NCBI GenBank assembly: GCA_036265815.1
Contig: DATAOI010000001.1
Coordinates: 1 to 64,000, forward strand
Source of the DNA: Gemmatimonadales bacterium
GTDB lineage: Bacteria; Gemmatimonadota; Gemmatimonadetes; Gemmatimonadales; GWC2-71-9
DNA: 64,000 bases
Direction: 5' to 3'
Below are positions 6,891 to 13,105 of this stretch, in pieces. Position 1 is the first letter of the stretch; each line of letters opens with the position of its first letter. Below the pieces are notes generated by a model that was given only the letters and a program-made list of their open reading frames with translations, was not told the origin of the DNA and did no database searches. A program made the translations under genes and the position numbers.

Positions 6891-6985
6891 AGTGCTCATG
6901 CCCGCTCGCCGCCGATGTTCCACGGTCGCTTCACGCCGCAGTACATAGGTTCAAGCATGCTCACCGGCGTTACGGAGACGTGATC

Positions 6986-9900
6986 ATGGTCCCGCGGAGA
7001 TCTCGTTTCCTGCGCTCACTGCAACTGCTCGGAGCGCTCGCCTGCTCACTGGCCGGCGATCTCCACGCGCAGGCAGAGACGGGAAAGCTCCAGGGCCGGG
7101 TCCAGGACGAGGCCGGGACCTCGCTTTCCGCGGCTCAGGTGTACCTGGTCGGCACCGCGTTCAGCGCGGTCACGGACGCTCACGGCCGTTACTTCATCAA
7201 CAATATTCCGGCCAGCAGCTGGGAGGTGCGAGCGATCTCCCTCGGATTCCATCCGGTGCAGGCCAGTGGCCTCCGCATCTTCGCCGACCAGACGACCACT
7301 CAGGATTTCACTCTGGCTCGGGCCCCAGTCAACCTGCAGGAGATCGCCGTTCTGGCGGCGGAGCAGCCGCTGGTACCCCGCGATGAGGTCACGACTAAGC
7401 AACGCGTGGACGGCCAATTCGCCGACGCCCTGCCGGTGGACCGGATTCGCGATGTGCTGGCCCTGCAGCCCGGCGTCATCGCGGTCAGCGGGAACCTTCT
7501 GTCGGGCCGCGGGAAGGACACCGGTGGCGGGCTGTCGATCCGGGGCGGCCGGGAGACCCAGAACGTCACCTACATCGATGGGGTGCCAGTCCAGGCTGGC
7601 TACATGGGGGATCGCCTGTTCGGTTGGGCAGACCTTGGCGCGCTGGGCACCAGCATCGAGATCGGCACCAACGCGTTCGAGGAGGCCTCGGTCACGACCG
7701 GCTCGGCATCCGCGGCGTTCGGCAACGCCACCTCCGGCATCGTGTCCATCGTCACCAGGACGGGGAGCCCGACCGGCTACCAGGGGTCGCTCAGCTTCGA
7801 GACCGACGAGCCCTTCGGGGTTGACTATGGCGTGGGCTTCAACCGGATCGAGAGCGGATTCAGCGGTCCGCTCGCGGAACGGCTCACCTTCGTGATCAAT
7901 GGGACTCTAGAGGGTGAGAGAGCGGTGGAGGAAGGTTTCCACAGTCAGAATGTGCCCATCTTCATCCAGGCGGGAGTCGACACGACGGTCCACCAAGCGA
8001 GCGCGATAAAAGATGATTCAACGACGGTGCGAAACGAAAGCCAGGACGCGGACACCACACTCGTCGAGGTCTCCCGATACGCCATTTCACGCGGACGATG
8101 CGAGACGTTCGACCAGGCTGGCTCGGCCGGTCTGCATGGTCGGGATGCCGCGGCGATCGTCGACATCAGGAACAACTACGGGTTCGACTGCAACGGGGTA
8201 CGCATCCCGGCCACGGCGCGGTCCCTCCTCGCCATCAATGGAAAGCTCAACTACACCTACGGCACCGGGTCGCGAATATCATTGAGCCTCGCGACCAGCC
8301 GGTTCCAGGGCCATCAGTTCGATTTCATCATTCGCCATCTGAATCGGCTGTCGGTGCCATGGAACCTGCGCGGGTTCAGCAATCGCAGCCGGCTGGCGAC
8401 GCTTACCTGGGTGCAGAATCTCTCCAAGAGCGCCGACCGGGCCTTGGCGTTGGATGTGTCGTTGTCCTATCAGCAGGACCGCACCATTGGCGCTCCCCTC
8501 ACCGTCGAGAGCGAACTCTCGACCCGCAGTCCCTTCGGCGGCTTCATCCTCAAGCCAATGGAGTTCCTCTACGACTTCGACACCTTCCCGATCACCGAGG
8601 ACTTGATCCGGAACCTCCGGCAGAACCAGGGGCGCATCACGCCCCAGGATCCCAACAACGCCACCTACAGCATTGTGGATGAACTCCGGAACAACGCGTA
8701 CGGTCTCTACGGAGAGTTCGGGGGGTTTTCTAGCACGATGGGCGGCAACACCTGGCAGTTCGGCGAATCGGGCGGGATCGCAGGGTTCCAGCACGTGAAC
8801 CTTTATCAGGAAGACCGGTACCTCGGCAAGGCGACGCTCGATTGGCAGGCCGATCGCTACAACCGGGTGAAATTGGGCGCAGAGCTCACCCGGTACGCCA
8901 TCGGCTACTACGCGTTCCTGGTGCGGTTCAAAGATGGCGGTGACGCCTACATCGAGAAACCGGTCCGTTGGAATGCATTCGTCGAGGATCGCCTGGATCT
9001 TGGCGACCTGGTGGTGGTAGGTGGACTCCGCTTCGACTGGTACGACTCCCGGGCCTCACGGCCATATGCCACGGACAGTCTTGGTGACCGGTATCCATTT
9101 CCCCGAATATCCTCGATGCCGACCTTTGACCCGAACAATCCTACGGCCTTGCTCGTCCGTGACCACAGCCACGGCTATCTCAGTCCGCGCGTGCAAGTGT
9201 CCTTTCCGGTGACCGCGCGGACCAATTTCCGGCTCAGCTATTCCCACCAGGTACAGGCGCCCGATTTCGGGCTGGTCCTGGGCGGGATCAACGGAGACCT
9301 CACTGTTACTGGGGCCAACCCCTTCGGCGCGGATCTCGACTTTGGCAAAACCATCGCCTTCGAGTTTGGCGTCCGGCACGCTTTCAACGATGACATGGTC
9401 GTCGACGTCGCAGCGTACAACAAGAACGTCATCGCCGATCCTGCCGCGCGCCTGGTTACCCGATTCGATCCGTATTTGAATCGAGACAACACTTTTCACA
9501 CGCTGACCAATCTGGACTTTGGCAACGTGCGCGGGGTGGATATCAGGCTGGACCGCCGGTTCGGCAACTTCTTCAACGGGACGATCGCCTACGCCTATCA
9601 GGACGCCCGAAATACCGGCTCAGATCCGTTCACCTATCTCAACTACGGCTCCCGCATCGTGAATTCGGCCACCGGGGGGACCCAGCCGCCCCCTCAAGCC
9701 ACATTGCCCACCGACAACAGCCGCCCACACACACTCGCCGGTGCCCTCTCTCTCACTCTCCCGGGCAAATGGAAGCGAGGCTCGCTGCTGGGCGAGATCC
9801 TGCAGAATGTCAGCGTATACTCGACCTTCCGCTACACCAGCGGATCGGCGTATTCCAGATGCGGAGAGAGCAACCCAGAACAGAGCATCCTTTCTGGCGA

Positions 9901-10423
9901 GAACTGCTTGGGGTCCTTTCCCGAGGGGATCAATACTCGCCGGCTGCCGGCCTTCAAGGAACTCAATGCCCGGGTGACGAAGAGCTTCGGACTGGGTTCG
10001 ATGGATGTGACGGTGTACCTCGACGTCCGTAATCTGCTCAATCTCAAGAATGTGCTTCAGGTCTTCGCGGTGAATGGTAGCGTGCGGAACGATGTCGAGC
10101 GGGCAGCAAACCTTCGAGCCGACCTGGGACAACTGGCTCTGGAGGGTGCGAACAACGGCGTGCTCGCGGCCGACAGCTCCCTGATGCTGCCCGTCCGTCA
10201 CGAGAGCTGCGCCACTTGGATTTCGAGCAAGGCGTCCCGGCCGGCCGCGGCAAACTGCATGTACCTCATTCGGGCTGAGGAGCGTTTCGGGGACGGCGAC
10301 GGCGTGTTCACGGTCGAGGAGCAGAGTCTGGCGATCAACGCCCTCTACGATGTCGCGCGCGGCGAGCAGGAACAGACTGCTCCGGGTCGCCGCGCGCGCG
10401 TCGGGCTGGAGCTCAGCTTCTGA
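6986..10423 (+). CDS. TonB-dependent outer-membrane receptor with carboxypeptidase-regulatory-like domain
   Basis: 1,145 residues. The signal peptide (RRSRFLRSLQLLGALACSLA..LHAQA) is followed by a CarboxypepD_reg-like domain at about 25-110 (GRVQDEAGTSLSAAQVYLVG, TDAHGRYFINNIP), a plug domain around 135-260 and a 22-strand-type barrel ending in LELSF with the terminal Phe typical of outer-membrane barrels. ATG 6986 is preferred to GTG 6980 because the GGAG at 6974-6977 is then 8 nt away. Such receptors import large substrates using TonB energy; the ligand is unknown. Before the last strand an insert carries two Cys and a calcium-loop-like DGDGVFTVEE. It sits directly after the kinase cluster, so the kinases may control it. 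Confidence 0.9.
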   Translation: MVPRRSRFLRSLQLLGALACSLAGDLHAQAETGKLQGRVQDEAGTSLSAAQVYLVGTAFSAVTDAHGRYFINNIPASSWEVRAISLGFHPVQASGLRIFADQTTTQDFTLARAPVNLQEIAVLAAEQPLVPRDEVTTKQRVDGQFADALPVDRIRDVLALQPGVIAVSGNLLSGRGKDTGGGLSIRGGRETQNVTYIDGVPVQAGYMGDRLFGWADLGALGTSIEIGTNAFEEASVTTGSASAAFGNATSGIVSIVTRTGSPTGYQGSLSFETDEPFGVDYGVGFNRIESGFSGPLAERLTFVINGTLEGERAVEEGFHSQNVPIFIQAGVDTTVHQASAIKDDSTTVRNESQDADTTLVEVSRYAISRGRCETFDQAGSAGLHGRDAAAIVDIRNNYGFDCNGVRIPATARSLLAINGKLNYTYGTGSRISLSLATSRFQGHQFDFIIRHLNRLSVPWNLRGFSNRSRLATLTWVQNLSKSADRALALDVSLSYQQDRTIGAPLTVESELSTRSPFGGFILKPMEFLYDFDTFPITEDLIRNLRQNQGRITPQDPNNATYSIVDELRNNAYGLYGEFGGFSSTMGGNTWQFGESGGIAGFQHVNLYQEDRYLGKATLDWQADRYNRVKLGAELTRYAIGYYAFLVRFKDGGDAYIEKPVRWNAFVEDRLDLGDLVVVGGLRFDWYDSRASRPYATDSLGDRYPFPRISSMPTFDPNNPTALLVRDHSHGYLSPRVQVSFPVTARTNFRLSYSHQVQAPDFGLVLGGINGDLTVTGANPFGADLDFGKTIAFEFGVRHAFNDDMVVDVAAYNKNVIADPAARLVTRFDPYLNRDNTFHTLTNLDFGNVRGVDIRLDRRFGNFFNGTIAYAYQDARNTGSDPFTYLNYGSRIVNSATGGTQPPPQATLPTDNSRPHTLAGALSLTLPGKWKRGSLLGEILQNVSVYSTFRYTSGSAYSRCGESNPEQSILSGENCLGSFPEGINTRRLPAFKELNARVTKSFGLGSMDVTVYLDVRNLLNLKNVLQVFAVNGSVRNDVERAANLRADLGQLALEGANNGVLAADSSLMLPVRHESCATWISSKASRPAAANCMYLIRAEERFGDGDGVFTVEEQSLAINALYDVARGEQEQTAPGRRARVGLELSF

Positions 10424-10514: not shown

Positions 10515-10599
10515 CCAAATACGCCGCGATCGCGAGGCCGGAGAGAAGGACTCTCGTGGGGCAAGAGTGGCCCCCGGCGAACACCGGGGGCCACGGTCA

Positions 10600-10785
10600 T
10601 CATTGGGCGCTGCAGTTGATTGTCTGCAGGAACGCCGGCAGGGCAGGATTGCTGGGGCACGTCTGCGTTACGGGTTCCAGCGCCGCGCCGCCCGGATCGG
10701 GGACGCCCACGGGTGAGTTGTCACAAGCGGTTGCAGCCAACACGACGGACAGCAGAACCGCGATCGAGAAGTAGTCACGCATCAT
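10600..10785 (-). CDS. Small lipoprotein, putative SARP target
   Basis: 61 residues, start at one of two adjacent ATGs (10785 or 10782) behind a GGAGG. The N-terminus is a lipoprotein signal (hydrophobic SIAVLLSVVLAATAC) with the lipobox ending in Cys, so the mature chain is only about 40 residues, with two further Cys that could form a disulphide. No family recognised. Its upstream region holds a four-repeat SARP-like operator and -10 box at 10868-10921, giving a predicted leader of about 75 nt. The shared operator type with the next lipoprotein gene suggests joint control by the SARP-kinase at 11549. Confidence 0.65.
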   Translation of the reverse strand: MMRDYFSIAVLLSVVLAATACDNSPVGVPDPGGAALEPVTQTCPSNPALPAFLQTINCSAQ

Positions 10786-10867: not shown

Positions 10868-10921
10868 ACACTAAGCTTCGATGCTCACCGGGCCCTCACA
10901 CCCTCCTCACCCGCTCCTCAT
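10868..10921 (-). promoter_or_regulatory. SARP-type operator and promoter for the small lipoprotein gene
   Basis: Read on the minus strand, heptamers ATGAGGA, GTGAGGA, GTGAGGG and GTGAGCA start every 11 bp (plus coordinates 10915-10921, 10904-10910, 10893-10899, 10882-10888). After the last heptamer come exactly 8 bp and then TAGTGT (10868-10873), a plausible -10. This is the layout known for SARP-activated promoters. It lies 82 bp from the start codon at 10785. Confidence 0.6.
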
Positions 10922-10950: not shown

Positions 10951-11409
10951 TCACCGAGCTCCGCACTTCGAAATCGGCAGAGCGCTTGCTCCCACCGCAG
11001 CGAGTGCCCGCTTCGGGCACGGCCCAGACAGCGGCTCGTTGCTTAGCACGGTGACCGTCGCGGCTCCCTTCATGCCGTGCCACTGGGCGGTGATCTGTGC
11101 CGTCCCAGGCGCCGCGGCCAGCACGGTCCCGTCCAAGCCGATCCTTGCAACCTTGAGATCTGAGCTGACCCACGCGATCTCCGTGGGCGCAATCGACATT
11201 CCCCGAGGACTTTCCCGGCTCGCGGTGAGCTGGACAGTCTGGCCACCCTTGATCGTGGTCTGGCTGGGTGCGACCAGCAGGACCAGCGTGGCGCCCGGCG
11301 GTAGCGGCGACCGCTTCGTCTCAGACGGCTCGGTAGGCGAGGAGCTGCAGGCGCCGAGGAGTCCGATCGCGGCGCACAGATAGGGTGAGGTCCAGCAGTG
11401 AGCGCGCAT
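10951..11409 (-). CDS. Lipoprotein with bacterial Ig-like (Big2) domain
   Basis: 152 residues, ATG 11409 with a GGGAGG about 6 nt upstream. A lipoprotein signal ends in the lipobox LLGAC. Residues about 40-125 look like a Big2 fold: hydrophobic strands, then KGGQTVQLTAS, WVSSDLKVARIGLDGTVLAA and GTAQITAQW, where the V-A-x-I/V-x-x-x-G-x-V motif is typical. The C-terminus adds a Cys-containing tail (SGPCPKRALA..). It is probably a surface or periplasmic adhesion or sensor-ligand protein anchored by lipid. It is divergent from the SARP-kinase gene and has its own SARP-like operator at 11497-11550. Confidence 0.75.
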   Translation of the reverse strand: MRAHCWTSPYLCAAIGLLGACSSSPTEPSETKRSPLPPGATLVLLVAPSQTTIKGGQTVQLTASRESPRGMSIAPTEIAWVSSDLKVARIGLDGTVLAAAPGTAQITAQWHGMKGAATVTVLSNEPLSGPCPKRALAAVGASALPISKCGAR

Positions 11410-11472: not shown

Positions 11473-11501
11473 TTGCTGCTCCCATACGCGGGGCCTACTA
11501 T
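11473..11501 (+). promoter_or_regulatory. Candidate promoter of the SARP-kinase gene
   Basis: TTGCTG (11473-11478), 17 bp, TACTAT (11496-11501). The predicted start near 11508 puts the SARP-like repeats (11511-11550) just downstream of it. Binding there could block the regulator's own transcription while activating the opposite strand; this is inference. Confidence 0.4.
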
Positions 11502-11550
11502 AGACTGAAGGGCTCACGGGGCTCTCACCCCCTGCTCATCTAGAACTCAT
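11497..11550 (-). promoter_or_regulatory. SARP-type operator and promoter for the Ig-like lipoprotein gene
   Basis: On the minus strand four heptamers, ATGAGTT, ATGAGCA, GTGAGAG and GTGAGCC, start every 11 bp (plus 11544-11550, 11533-11539, 11522-11528, 11511-11517). Exactly 8 bp later comes TATAGT (11497-11502), a good -10. The outermost repeat overlaps the ATG of the divergent SARP-kinase gene. The start codon of the target is 88 bp from the -10. Confidence 0.65.
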
Positions 11551-13105
11551 GCTGCGACTCCAGGCTCTCGGCGGACTCACCCTGCTCGATGCGGCAGGAA
11601 CGCCGCTTGTCACCCAGCGGCGGCGGCTGGGCCTGCTGGCCCTGCTTGCCGCCGCGGGTGGCCGGGGGTCGAGCCGCGACAAGCTCGTGGCCTATCTCTG
11701 GGCGGAGAGCTCCACGGAACACGCCCGGCACGCGCTGGAGCAGCTGCTCTACTCCATTCGGCGTCAGATCTCCGATGACGCTCTGCTCGGCACCGATCCG
11801 CTGCAGCTCAATCCCAGTGTCCTCACGAGCGATGTCGGCGATTTCGAGCGCGCGCTCGCCCGCGACGACCTTGCCGAGGCCGCCGCGCTGTACCATGGTC
11901 CCTTCCTGGACGGGTTCTTTCTGAGCGACGCCCCCGCCTTCGAGGTGTGGGCCGAGTCGGAACGCAGCCGACTGGCGACCGCGTACGAGGGAGCGCTCTT
12001 TCGTCTCGCGAGGGAGGCTGGTGGCCGAGGGCAGCACACGACCGAAATCGACTGGTGGCGACGGCTCGCCACGCTCGACCCGCTCAGCGAACGATCGGCA
12101 CTGGGGCTCGCGCGCGCGCTCGCGGGCGCGGGGGATTGGGCCGGCGCGCTGCACCACGCGGAGGTCTACGAATCGCTGGTGCGGGAAGAACTGGCCATGC
12201 CACCGACGCCGGAGTTGACTGCATTCGTCCAGCGAATCCGGACTGGTGACGACGCGCCAAGCAAGGGCAGGAAGGACGCAGGCTCGGTTCCAGCCGAGCG
12301 CTACCGGATCGAGCGCGAGCTCGGGCGGGGCACCATGGCCACGGTCTATCTGGCGCGGGATCTCAAGCACAACCGACCGGTCGCCCTCAAGGTCCTGCGG
12401 CCGGAGCTGGCCACCTCGACCGAAGCCAAGCGGTTCCTCCGCGAGATCGCCATCGTCGCCGGCTTGCACCACCCGCACATCCTCCAGCTGTACGACTCGG
12501 GCGCGCTGGAAGCGCCCGGGAGATGCCCCAGCCTGTACTACGTCATGCCCGTCGCGGGCGGTGAGTCAGTTCGCGAGCGGCTGGTGAAGGAGGAGCAGCT
12601 TCCACTGGGAGACGCGTTGCGGATCGCCCGGGAGGTGGCCGATGCGCTGGCCTACGCGCATGCTCATGGGATCGTGCATCGGGACGTCAGGCCGGAGAAC
12701 CTCTTGCTCGAGTCGGGCCACGCGCTGGTGGCGGACTTCGGGATCGCCCACGCGTTGGACCTCGCCGGCGGCGAGCGGCTCTCGCTGACCGGGGTGATGC
12801 TCGGCAATCCGAGCTACATGAGTCCCGAGCAGGCAGCCGCCACCGGGGGAATCGACGGACGCAGCGATATCTACAGCCTGGGATGCGTGCTCTACGAGAT
12901 GCTGGCCGGCGAGCCACCGTTCAGCGGCCGCACCTCCCAGGCGATCCTGGCGCGCCACGCGGCGGATCCGGTGCCGTCGCTCCGGACGGTCCGTCCCGAC
13001 GTTCCGGCAGCGCTCGAGCGGGCAGTCGAACGCGCGCTGGCAAAGGCGCCGGCGGACCGGTTCCCGTCGGCAAGGGAGTTCGCCGAGGCCTTGGGCCTGG
13101 CATAA
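11549..13105 (+). CDS. SARP-type transcription activator fused to a soluble Ser/Thr kinase
   Basis: 518 residues. Residues 1-95 form an OmpR/SARP-like winged helix (MLRLQALGGLTLLD..., RRRLGLLALLAAAG, DKLVAYLWAESSTEHARHAL). Residues about 97-230 are a bacterial transcriptional activation domain (TPR-like; DFERALARDDLAEAAALYHG, PLSERSALGLARALAGAGDW). Residues 253-515 form a kinase with LGRGTMATVYLA, lysine K281 and DFG 396-398. Two hallmark positions differ from the neighbouring kinases: the catalytic loop is HRDVRPEN (Arg381 for the near-invariant Lys), and GTP before YMSPEQ is GNP (419-421). No membrane helix, so it is cytosolic. It is divergent from two lipoprotein genes carrying SARP-like operators, and one operator overlaps its own start codon. 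It could be a phosphorylation-controlled activator or a pseudokinase-gated one. Confidence 0.85.
   Translation: MLRLQALGGLTLLDAAGTPLVTQRRRLGLLALLAAAGGRGSSRDKLVAYLWAESSTEHARHALEQLLYSIRRQISDDALLGTDPLQLNPSVLTSDVGDFERALARDDLAEAAALYHGPFLDGFFLSDAPAFEVWAESERSRLATAYEGALFRLAREAGGRGQHTTEIDWWRRLATLDPLSERSALGLARALAGAGDWAGALHHAEVYESLVREELAMPPTPELTAFVQRIRTGDDAPSKGRKDAGSVPAERYRIERELGRGTMATVYLARDLKHNRPVALKVLRPELATSTEAKRFLREIAIVAGLHHPHILQLYDSGALEAPGRCPSLYYVMPVAGGESVRERLVKEEQLPLGDALRIAREVADALAYAHAHGIVHRDVRPENLLLESGHALVADFGIAHALDLAGGERLSLTGVMLGNPSYMSPEQAAATGGIDGRSDIYSLGCVLYEMLAGEPPFSGRTSQAILARHAADPVPSLRTVRPDVPAALERAVERALAKAPADRFPSAREFAEALGLA

Follow-up and report, generated by a model that had tools for sequence, protein, structure and literature searches.

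A predicted SARP-type operator before a small lipoprotein gene and its counterpart at a neighbouring SARP-kinase gene in Gemmatimonadota

SARPs are known chiefly as activators of antibiotic gene clusters in actinomycetes. EmbR is tied to Ser/Thr kinase signalling, and contains an FHA domain and no kinase. SARP promoters carry direct repeats spaced 11 or 22 bp apart, with the 3' repeat located 8 bp from the -10 element, as described in a study of AfsR (PMC10936776). In the AfsK-AfsR system, the SARP is under the control of a Ser/Thr kinase (reviewed in PMC10972967). Searches of open-access papers for fusions of a SARP to a kinase, or for BTAD genes, in Gemmatimonadota found nothing relevant. 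The DNA analyzed here (the window, 64,000 nucleotides in its full length) is from a soil bacterium of this phylum, and the nearest relatives with a name are genomes of Gemmatimonadales.

Two arrays of heptamers are present on the minus strand of the window. Site 2 (10868-10921) consists of ATGAGGA, GTGAGGA, GTGAGGG and GTGAGCA, followed by the -10 element TAGTGT at 10873-10868, and reads, from 10921 to 10868, ATGAGGA gcgg GTGAGGA gggt GTGAGGG cccg GTGAGCA tcgaagct TAGTGT. Site 1 (11497-11550) consists of ATGAGTT, ATGAGCA, GTGAGAG and GTGAGCC, followed by an 8-bp gap and the -10 element TATAGT, and reads, from 11550 to 11497, ATGAGTT ctag ATGAGCA gggg GTGAGAG cccc GTGAGCC cttcagtc TATAGT. Both sites have four heptamers at a step of 11 bp, exactly 8 bp between the 3' heptamer and the -10, and repeats that cover the -35 position. 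An earlier note had described site 2 as four heptamers in 11-bp steps, 8 bp and TAGTGT, and all of these elements are present. Because the geometry equals the published SARP rule (PMC10936776), the two sites are interpreted as SARP-type operators.

When the whole window is scanned, the scores are 22.5 and 22.0 for the two sites and at most 15 for any unrelated place. The strict pattern GTGAG-N6-GTGAG-N10-TANNNT has two matches in the 4.59-Mb genome, which are sites 1 and 2, and its reversed control has none, in agreement with the earlier view that chance is unlikely. A looser three-repeat search of the genome adds only the site that belongs to a paralogous SARP, C44, and two places that lack a -10. 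The two sites are identical at 19/20 core positions versus 12/28 non-core positions (Fisher p = 1.8e-4), so that what they have in common is the repeats and not the DNA overall. Judged from the -10 positions, transcription would start at ∼10861 from site 2 and ∼11490 from site 1, giving leaders of 76 nt (to the ATG at 10785) and 81 nt (to the ATG at 11409), close to the nearly equal lengths of ∼75 and ∼80 nt proposed earlier. On the opposite strand, the start codon of the SARP-kinase gene falls within the distal heptamer of site 1 (CTCATG). At site 1 and its orthologues the -10 is often TATAGT/ACTATA when both strands are read, and the -10 of site 1 is possibly common to both directions, also serving the regulator gene.

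Site 2 is directed toward its putative target, a small lipoprotein gene encoding 61 aa (10600-10785, minus strand; MMRDYFSIAVLLSVVLAATAC...), which is preceded by the RBS GGAGG; the site lies 29 bp past the end of the gene for a second, Big_2 lipoprotein. The GC content of the small gene by codon position is 0.61/0.53/0.76. Its product has no Pfam or NCBIfam match and, in nine genomes of the same genus, no convincing homologue (the best hit has E = 0.0025 over 47 residues). A 12-bp stem-loop without a U tract (10545-10605, minus strand; -31.6 kcal/mol, z = -4.3) directly follows the small lipoprotein gene, separating it from the convergent TonB-receptor gene, and is a possible terminator. Site 1 is directed away from the SARP-kinase gene and toward its own putative target, a 152-aa lipoprotein gene (10951-11409, minus strand) with a Big_2 domain (PF02368, E = 3e-9), homologues of which adjoin orthologous SARP-kinases. 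An operator was also looked for before the TonB-receptor gene of the window (6980-10423) and was not found.

The adjoining SARP-kinase gene (11549-13105, plus strand) encodes 518 aa, comprising a winged HTH and BTAD (residues 1-234) and a Ser/Thr kinase (residues 252-504). The BTAD, which follows the HTH, matches PF03704 with 46.6 bits (cut-off 22.1), while the HTH matches Trans_reg_C with 22.1 bits, under the cut-off of 26.2, and the kinase domain matches Pkinase with E = 6e-46. An AlphaFold model of residues 1-234 (pLDDT 94.7) has strong Foldseek matches in the PDB to AfsR (8k60/8hvr) and EmbR (2fez/2ff4) only, and these matches span the HTH domain. As modeled, the product has a true SARP fold, including the OmpR-type winged HTH. 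The kinase motifs GRGTMATV, VALK, HRDVRPEN and DFG are found. In the catalytic loop HRDVRPEN, R replaces the usual K; some orthologues share this change, and K is kept in one of three orthologues checked. The C44 paralogue, encoded on another contig of the same genome, is 61% identical to the SARP-kinase.

The site 1 operator is kept in six relatives of the same genus with SARP-kinases that are ∼60-65% identical, and in nearly all same-genus orthologues the distal heptamer likewise overlaps the SARP start codon; in one genome (G069) the orthologous operator is farther from the gene start. Across seven orthologous operators the mean column majority is 0.95 for the cores and 0.63 for the other operator positions, 0.64 for the gap and 0.60 for the downstream 60 bp. 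The earlier expectation that the repeats are kept in relatives while the flanks drift is thus borne out for the orthologues of site 1 (cores 0.95 versus ∼0.63). With two mismatches allowed, ten same-genus genomes contain 12 sites, most of them at the gene of the SARP-kinase or of a close paralogue, and the reversed control yields none. Site 2 was not found in any relative examined and, on the genomes compared, is lineage-specific. Elsewhere in the group, a 140-aa lipoprotein gene located away from the SARP-kinase has a GTGAG-type array in front of it (L055, G013:C250:3758-3800, plus strand), and is possibly a further lineage-specific target. Another array, of GTGA(G/T) type (L058, G000:C24:2669-2711, plus strand), resembles the operator of the C37 SARP gene (L008) and has no adjoining BTAD gene; it may be a second target of the C37 paralogue.

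The published SARP geometry, the SARP fold and the kept heptamers of site 1 strongly support the operator architecture put forward earlier, and it is very probable that site 2 works as a SARP-type operator of the small lipoprotein gene. In the proposed mechanism, the SARP domain of the adjoining SARP-kinase would bind the tandem 11-bp units as monomers lying side by side along one face of the DNA. The two promoter-proximal units, at about -38 to -21, would occupy the place of AfsR and engage sigma region 4, replacing the absent -35, so that RNA polymerase would start ∼7 nt past TAGTGT, at ∼10861. Transcription of the 61-aa lipoprotein gene would thereby be driven from site 2, and that of the Big_2 lipoprotein gene from site 1. 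Binding of the arrays by the SARP is a prediction, to which the covariation of heptamers with the recognition helix speaks indirectly, and activation rather than repression is suggested by analogy. The fused Ser/Thr kinase may gate SARP activity as a built-in AfsK, comparable to the separate AfsK acting on AfsR; kinase control of the SARP, and a signal for it, are presumed.

The occurrence of such arrays was surveyed in 166 distinct SARP-domain genes, drawn from the same family and from named contigs and nearly all from Gemmatimonadota. The detector requires three heptamers and TAnnnT, with a threshold set by us and applied equally to all controls. A divergent array at step 11 is detected at 70/166 genes, compared to 3, 4, 0, 2, 3 and 1 at control steps of 8, 9, 10, 12, 13 and 14, respectively, and 1.35 detections in mono-nucleotide shuffles of the 166 loci; at this threshold, more than half of the 166 genes have no array. 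The distance from the T of the last TGA to the -10 is 14 nt in 54/63 arrays. A further 69 SARP genes from a phylum-wide search contain 14 arrays at step 11, versus 0-2 at the control steps, and the same distance of 14 nt in 12/12. An ORF with a lipobox and RBS follows 42 of the 70 arrays, versus 3 in reversed sequence. The locus L015 (G000:C5) encodes a paralogous SARP with a stop after ∼235 residues, and hence a small SARP without a fused kinase, and keeps its own array (TTGACCG).

The heptamers vary by paralogue: the window sites have GTGAG, and three further SARP genes in this genome have GGTGATT, TTGACCG and ACGACAC. This recurrence across the phylum with regulator-specific heptamers goes beyond the earlier note. 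Covariation between regulator and heptamer was analyzed in 66 non-redundant loci, over ∼210 variable SARP-domain columns with the same phylogeny. With the T of TGA numbered 0, the best-covarying columns are residue 62 with base -1, residue 64 with bases +3, +4 and +5, and residue 67 with base -2. All three residues fall within the predicted recognition helix α3 (residues 56-73, of which 57-73, EHARHALEQLLYSIRRQ, are encoded at 11717-11767, plus strand). E64 occurs with TGAG in 5/5 loci, K64 with TGAC in 7/7 and R64 with TGAC in 14/16, these classes being partly clades that contain related proteins. One pair within a single clade, L253 (K64, TTTGACCGG) and L090 (R64, TTTGACGCG), differs in class, and for each protein the identity to the nearest one from another class is 76%. 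In 5/6 bins of matched overall identity, agreement at base +3 is more frequent among pairs with the same residue 64 than among pairs in which this residue differs. For an independent test on other families only 12 held-out loci are usable, too few by themselves: the covariation ranking is not reproduced in them and column 64 has no rank support at base +3, so that the recognition code is derived from the combined set.

An origin of site 2 by duplication of the 5' region of the SARP-kinase gene was previously considered probable, on the basis of a resemblance to the first codons of that gene. The resemblance is real but short: the site 2 flank and the SARP start (CTCATGTTGCGCC / CTCATGCTGCGAC) share 8/13 bases (shuffle p = 0.0075), the differences are synonymous in the Met-Leu-Arg-Leu codons, and of the 79 occurrences of ATGAG in the window just two outscore the site 2 flank, one being the SARP start itself. 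Within the window, these 13 nt at p = 0.0075 argue weakly for duplication, which gains plausibility from another genome, G082. There, just downstream of the orthologous SARP-kinase, a GTGAG-type operator (L061, G082:C500, 4008-4050, plus strand) lies in front of the gene for a TonB-dependent receptor. This receptor gene is a homologue of the window gene at 6980-10423. Compared to the first operator of G082, the second shares 7/8 gap positions and 9/13 positions of the SARP-start flank (p ∼0.002 each), remnants that make operator duplication a plausible route in this group, and by which the TonB-receptor operator likely arose. For site 2 itself, duplication of the SARP 5' region is a plausible origin to which the sequence lends weak support.

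Several other explanations of the arrays were considered. Chance or simple repeat DNA is scarcely credible: GAGG-like words are common in GC-rich sequence (68% GC), but in the genome the strict pattern matches nowhere else and its reversed control nowhere at all, and the array signal is period-specific across the phylum. An origin by chance or from simple repeats was rejected on the step controls in the phylum together with the reversed-pattern control in the genome. It is improbable that C44 is the true regulator of site 2, alone or together with the neighbouring SARP-kinase. Its own array (ATGAGGGGCATATGAGGGCGGCATGAT) is similar to the site 2 class, and since the heptamers are of a similar ATGAG type, C44 could also bind at site 2; however, C44 has Q64 and G62, its heptamers are A-type without TAnnnT at the same distance, and it lies on another contig, while the site 2 repeats are mostly GTGAG, as at the own site of the neighbouring SARP-kinase.

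We consider it quite improbable that the SARP-kinase bound to these arrays acts mainly as a repressor, with autoregulation of the regulator as the function and site 2 as a by-product. Since the arrays coincide with the translation start of the regulator itself, binding there would autoregulate the regulator. Consistent with this, the distal site 1 heptamer overlaps the SARP start codon in almost every same-genus orthologue, and 14/166 genes also give a detection oriented toward the regulator. The strict 8-bp spacing is nevertheless to a -10 directed away from the regulator, with the same distance in 54/63 arrays, and the same geometry recurs at site 2 and at the G082 TonB-receptor site, neither of which has a regulator start codon that could be repressed. 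Equally doubtful is that site 2 is a decayed or inert remnant of a duplicated operator and SARP start, with no present role. Its lineage-specificity and the persistence of the SARP-start-like flank (MLRL codons) would fit a remnant, but all four site 2 cores are intact and at least of site 1 quality (19/20 core versus 12/28 elsewhere), and the site is followed by a -10, an RBS, a lipoprotein ORF and a stem-loop.

A working operator at site 2 also fits into a broader interpretation, which we favor by a small measure. The Gemmatimonadota would contain an expanded family of SARPs and SARP-kinases, every member having its own SARP operator between itself and a divergent lipoprotein gene. The heptamers would have co-diverged with residues 62, 64 and 67 (E64 with TGAG, K64 with TGACC, R64 with TGACG), and regulons would grow by copying of the operator with a 5' piece of the regulator gene to positions before lipoprotein and TonB-receptor genes, site 2 being one such copy. 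If this is correct, co-divergence of the heptamers and the recognition helix would insulate several parallel systems in one cell. The present analysis places the complete predicted regulator-operator pair in a phylum other than that of the actinomycetes, and many uncharacterized SARP-kinases gain a predicted direct target. The natural series of regulator-operator pairs may make SARP DNA-recognition rules readable, and the second copy before an orphan lipoprotein gene suggests how such a regulon may grow.

Of the known systems, the Streptomyces SARP operators (the afsS, ActII-ORF4, DnrI and PimR sites) are alike in their 11-bp heptamer repeats, 8 bp to the -10, the overlap with the -35 region and the SARP fold of the regulator. 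The sites described here differ from these in belonging to Gemmatimonadota, in having four repeats, in a SARP that is fused to a kinase, and in a target that is a divergent lipoprotein gene and not a biosynthetic cluster. In contrast to the AfsK-AfsR phosphorelay, the kinase and the SARP form one polypeptide, in which kinase control would be exerted internally. EmbR of Mycobacterium tuberculosis, a SARP-fold regulator, is among the only strong PDB matches. The kind of operator and the kind of regulator are known; what sets the present case apart is the phylum, the fusion to a kinase, the predicted lipoprotein targets and heptamers that covary with the regulator.
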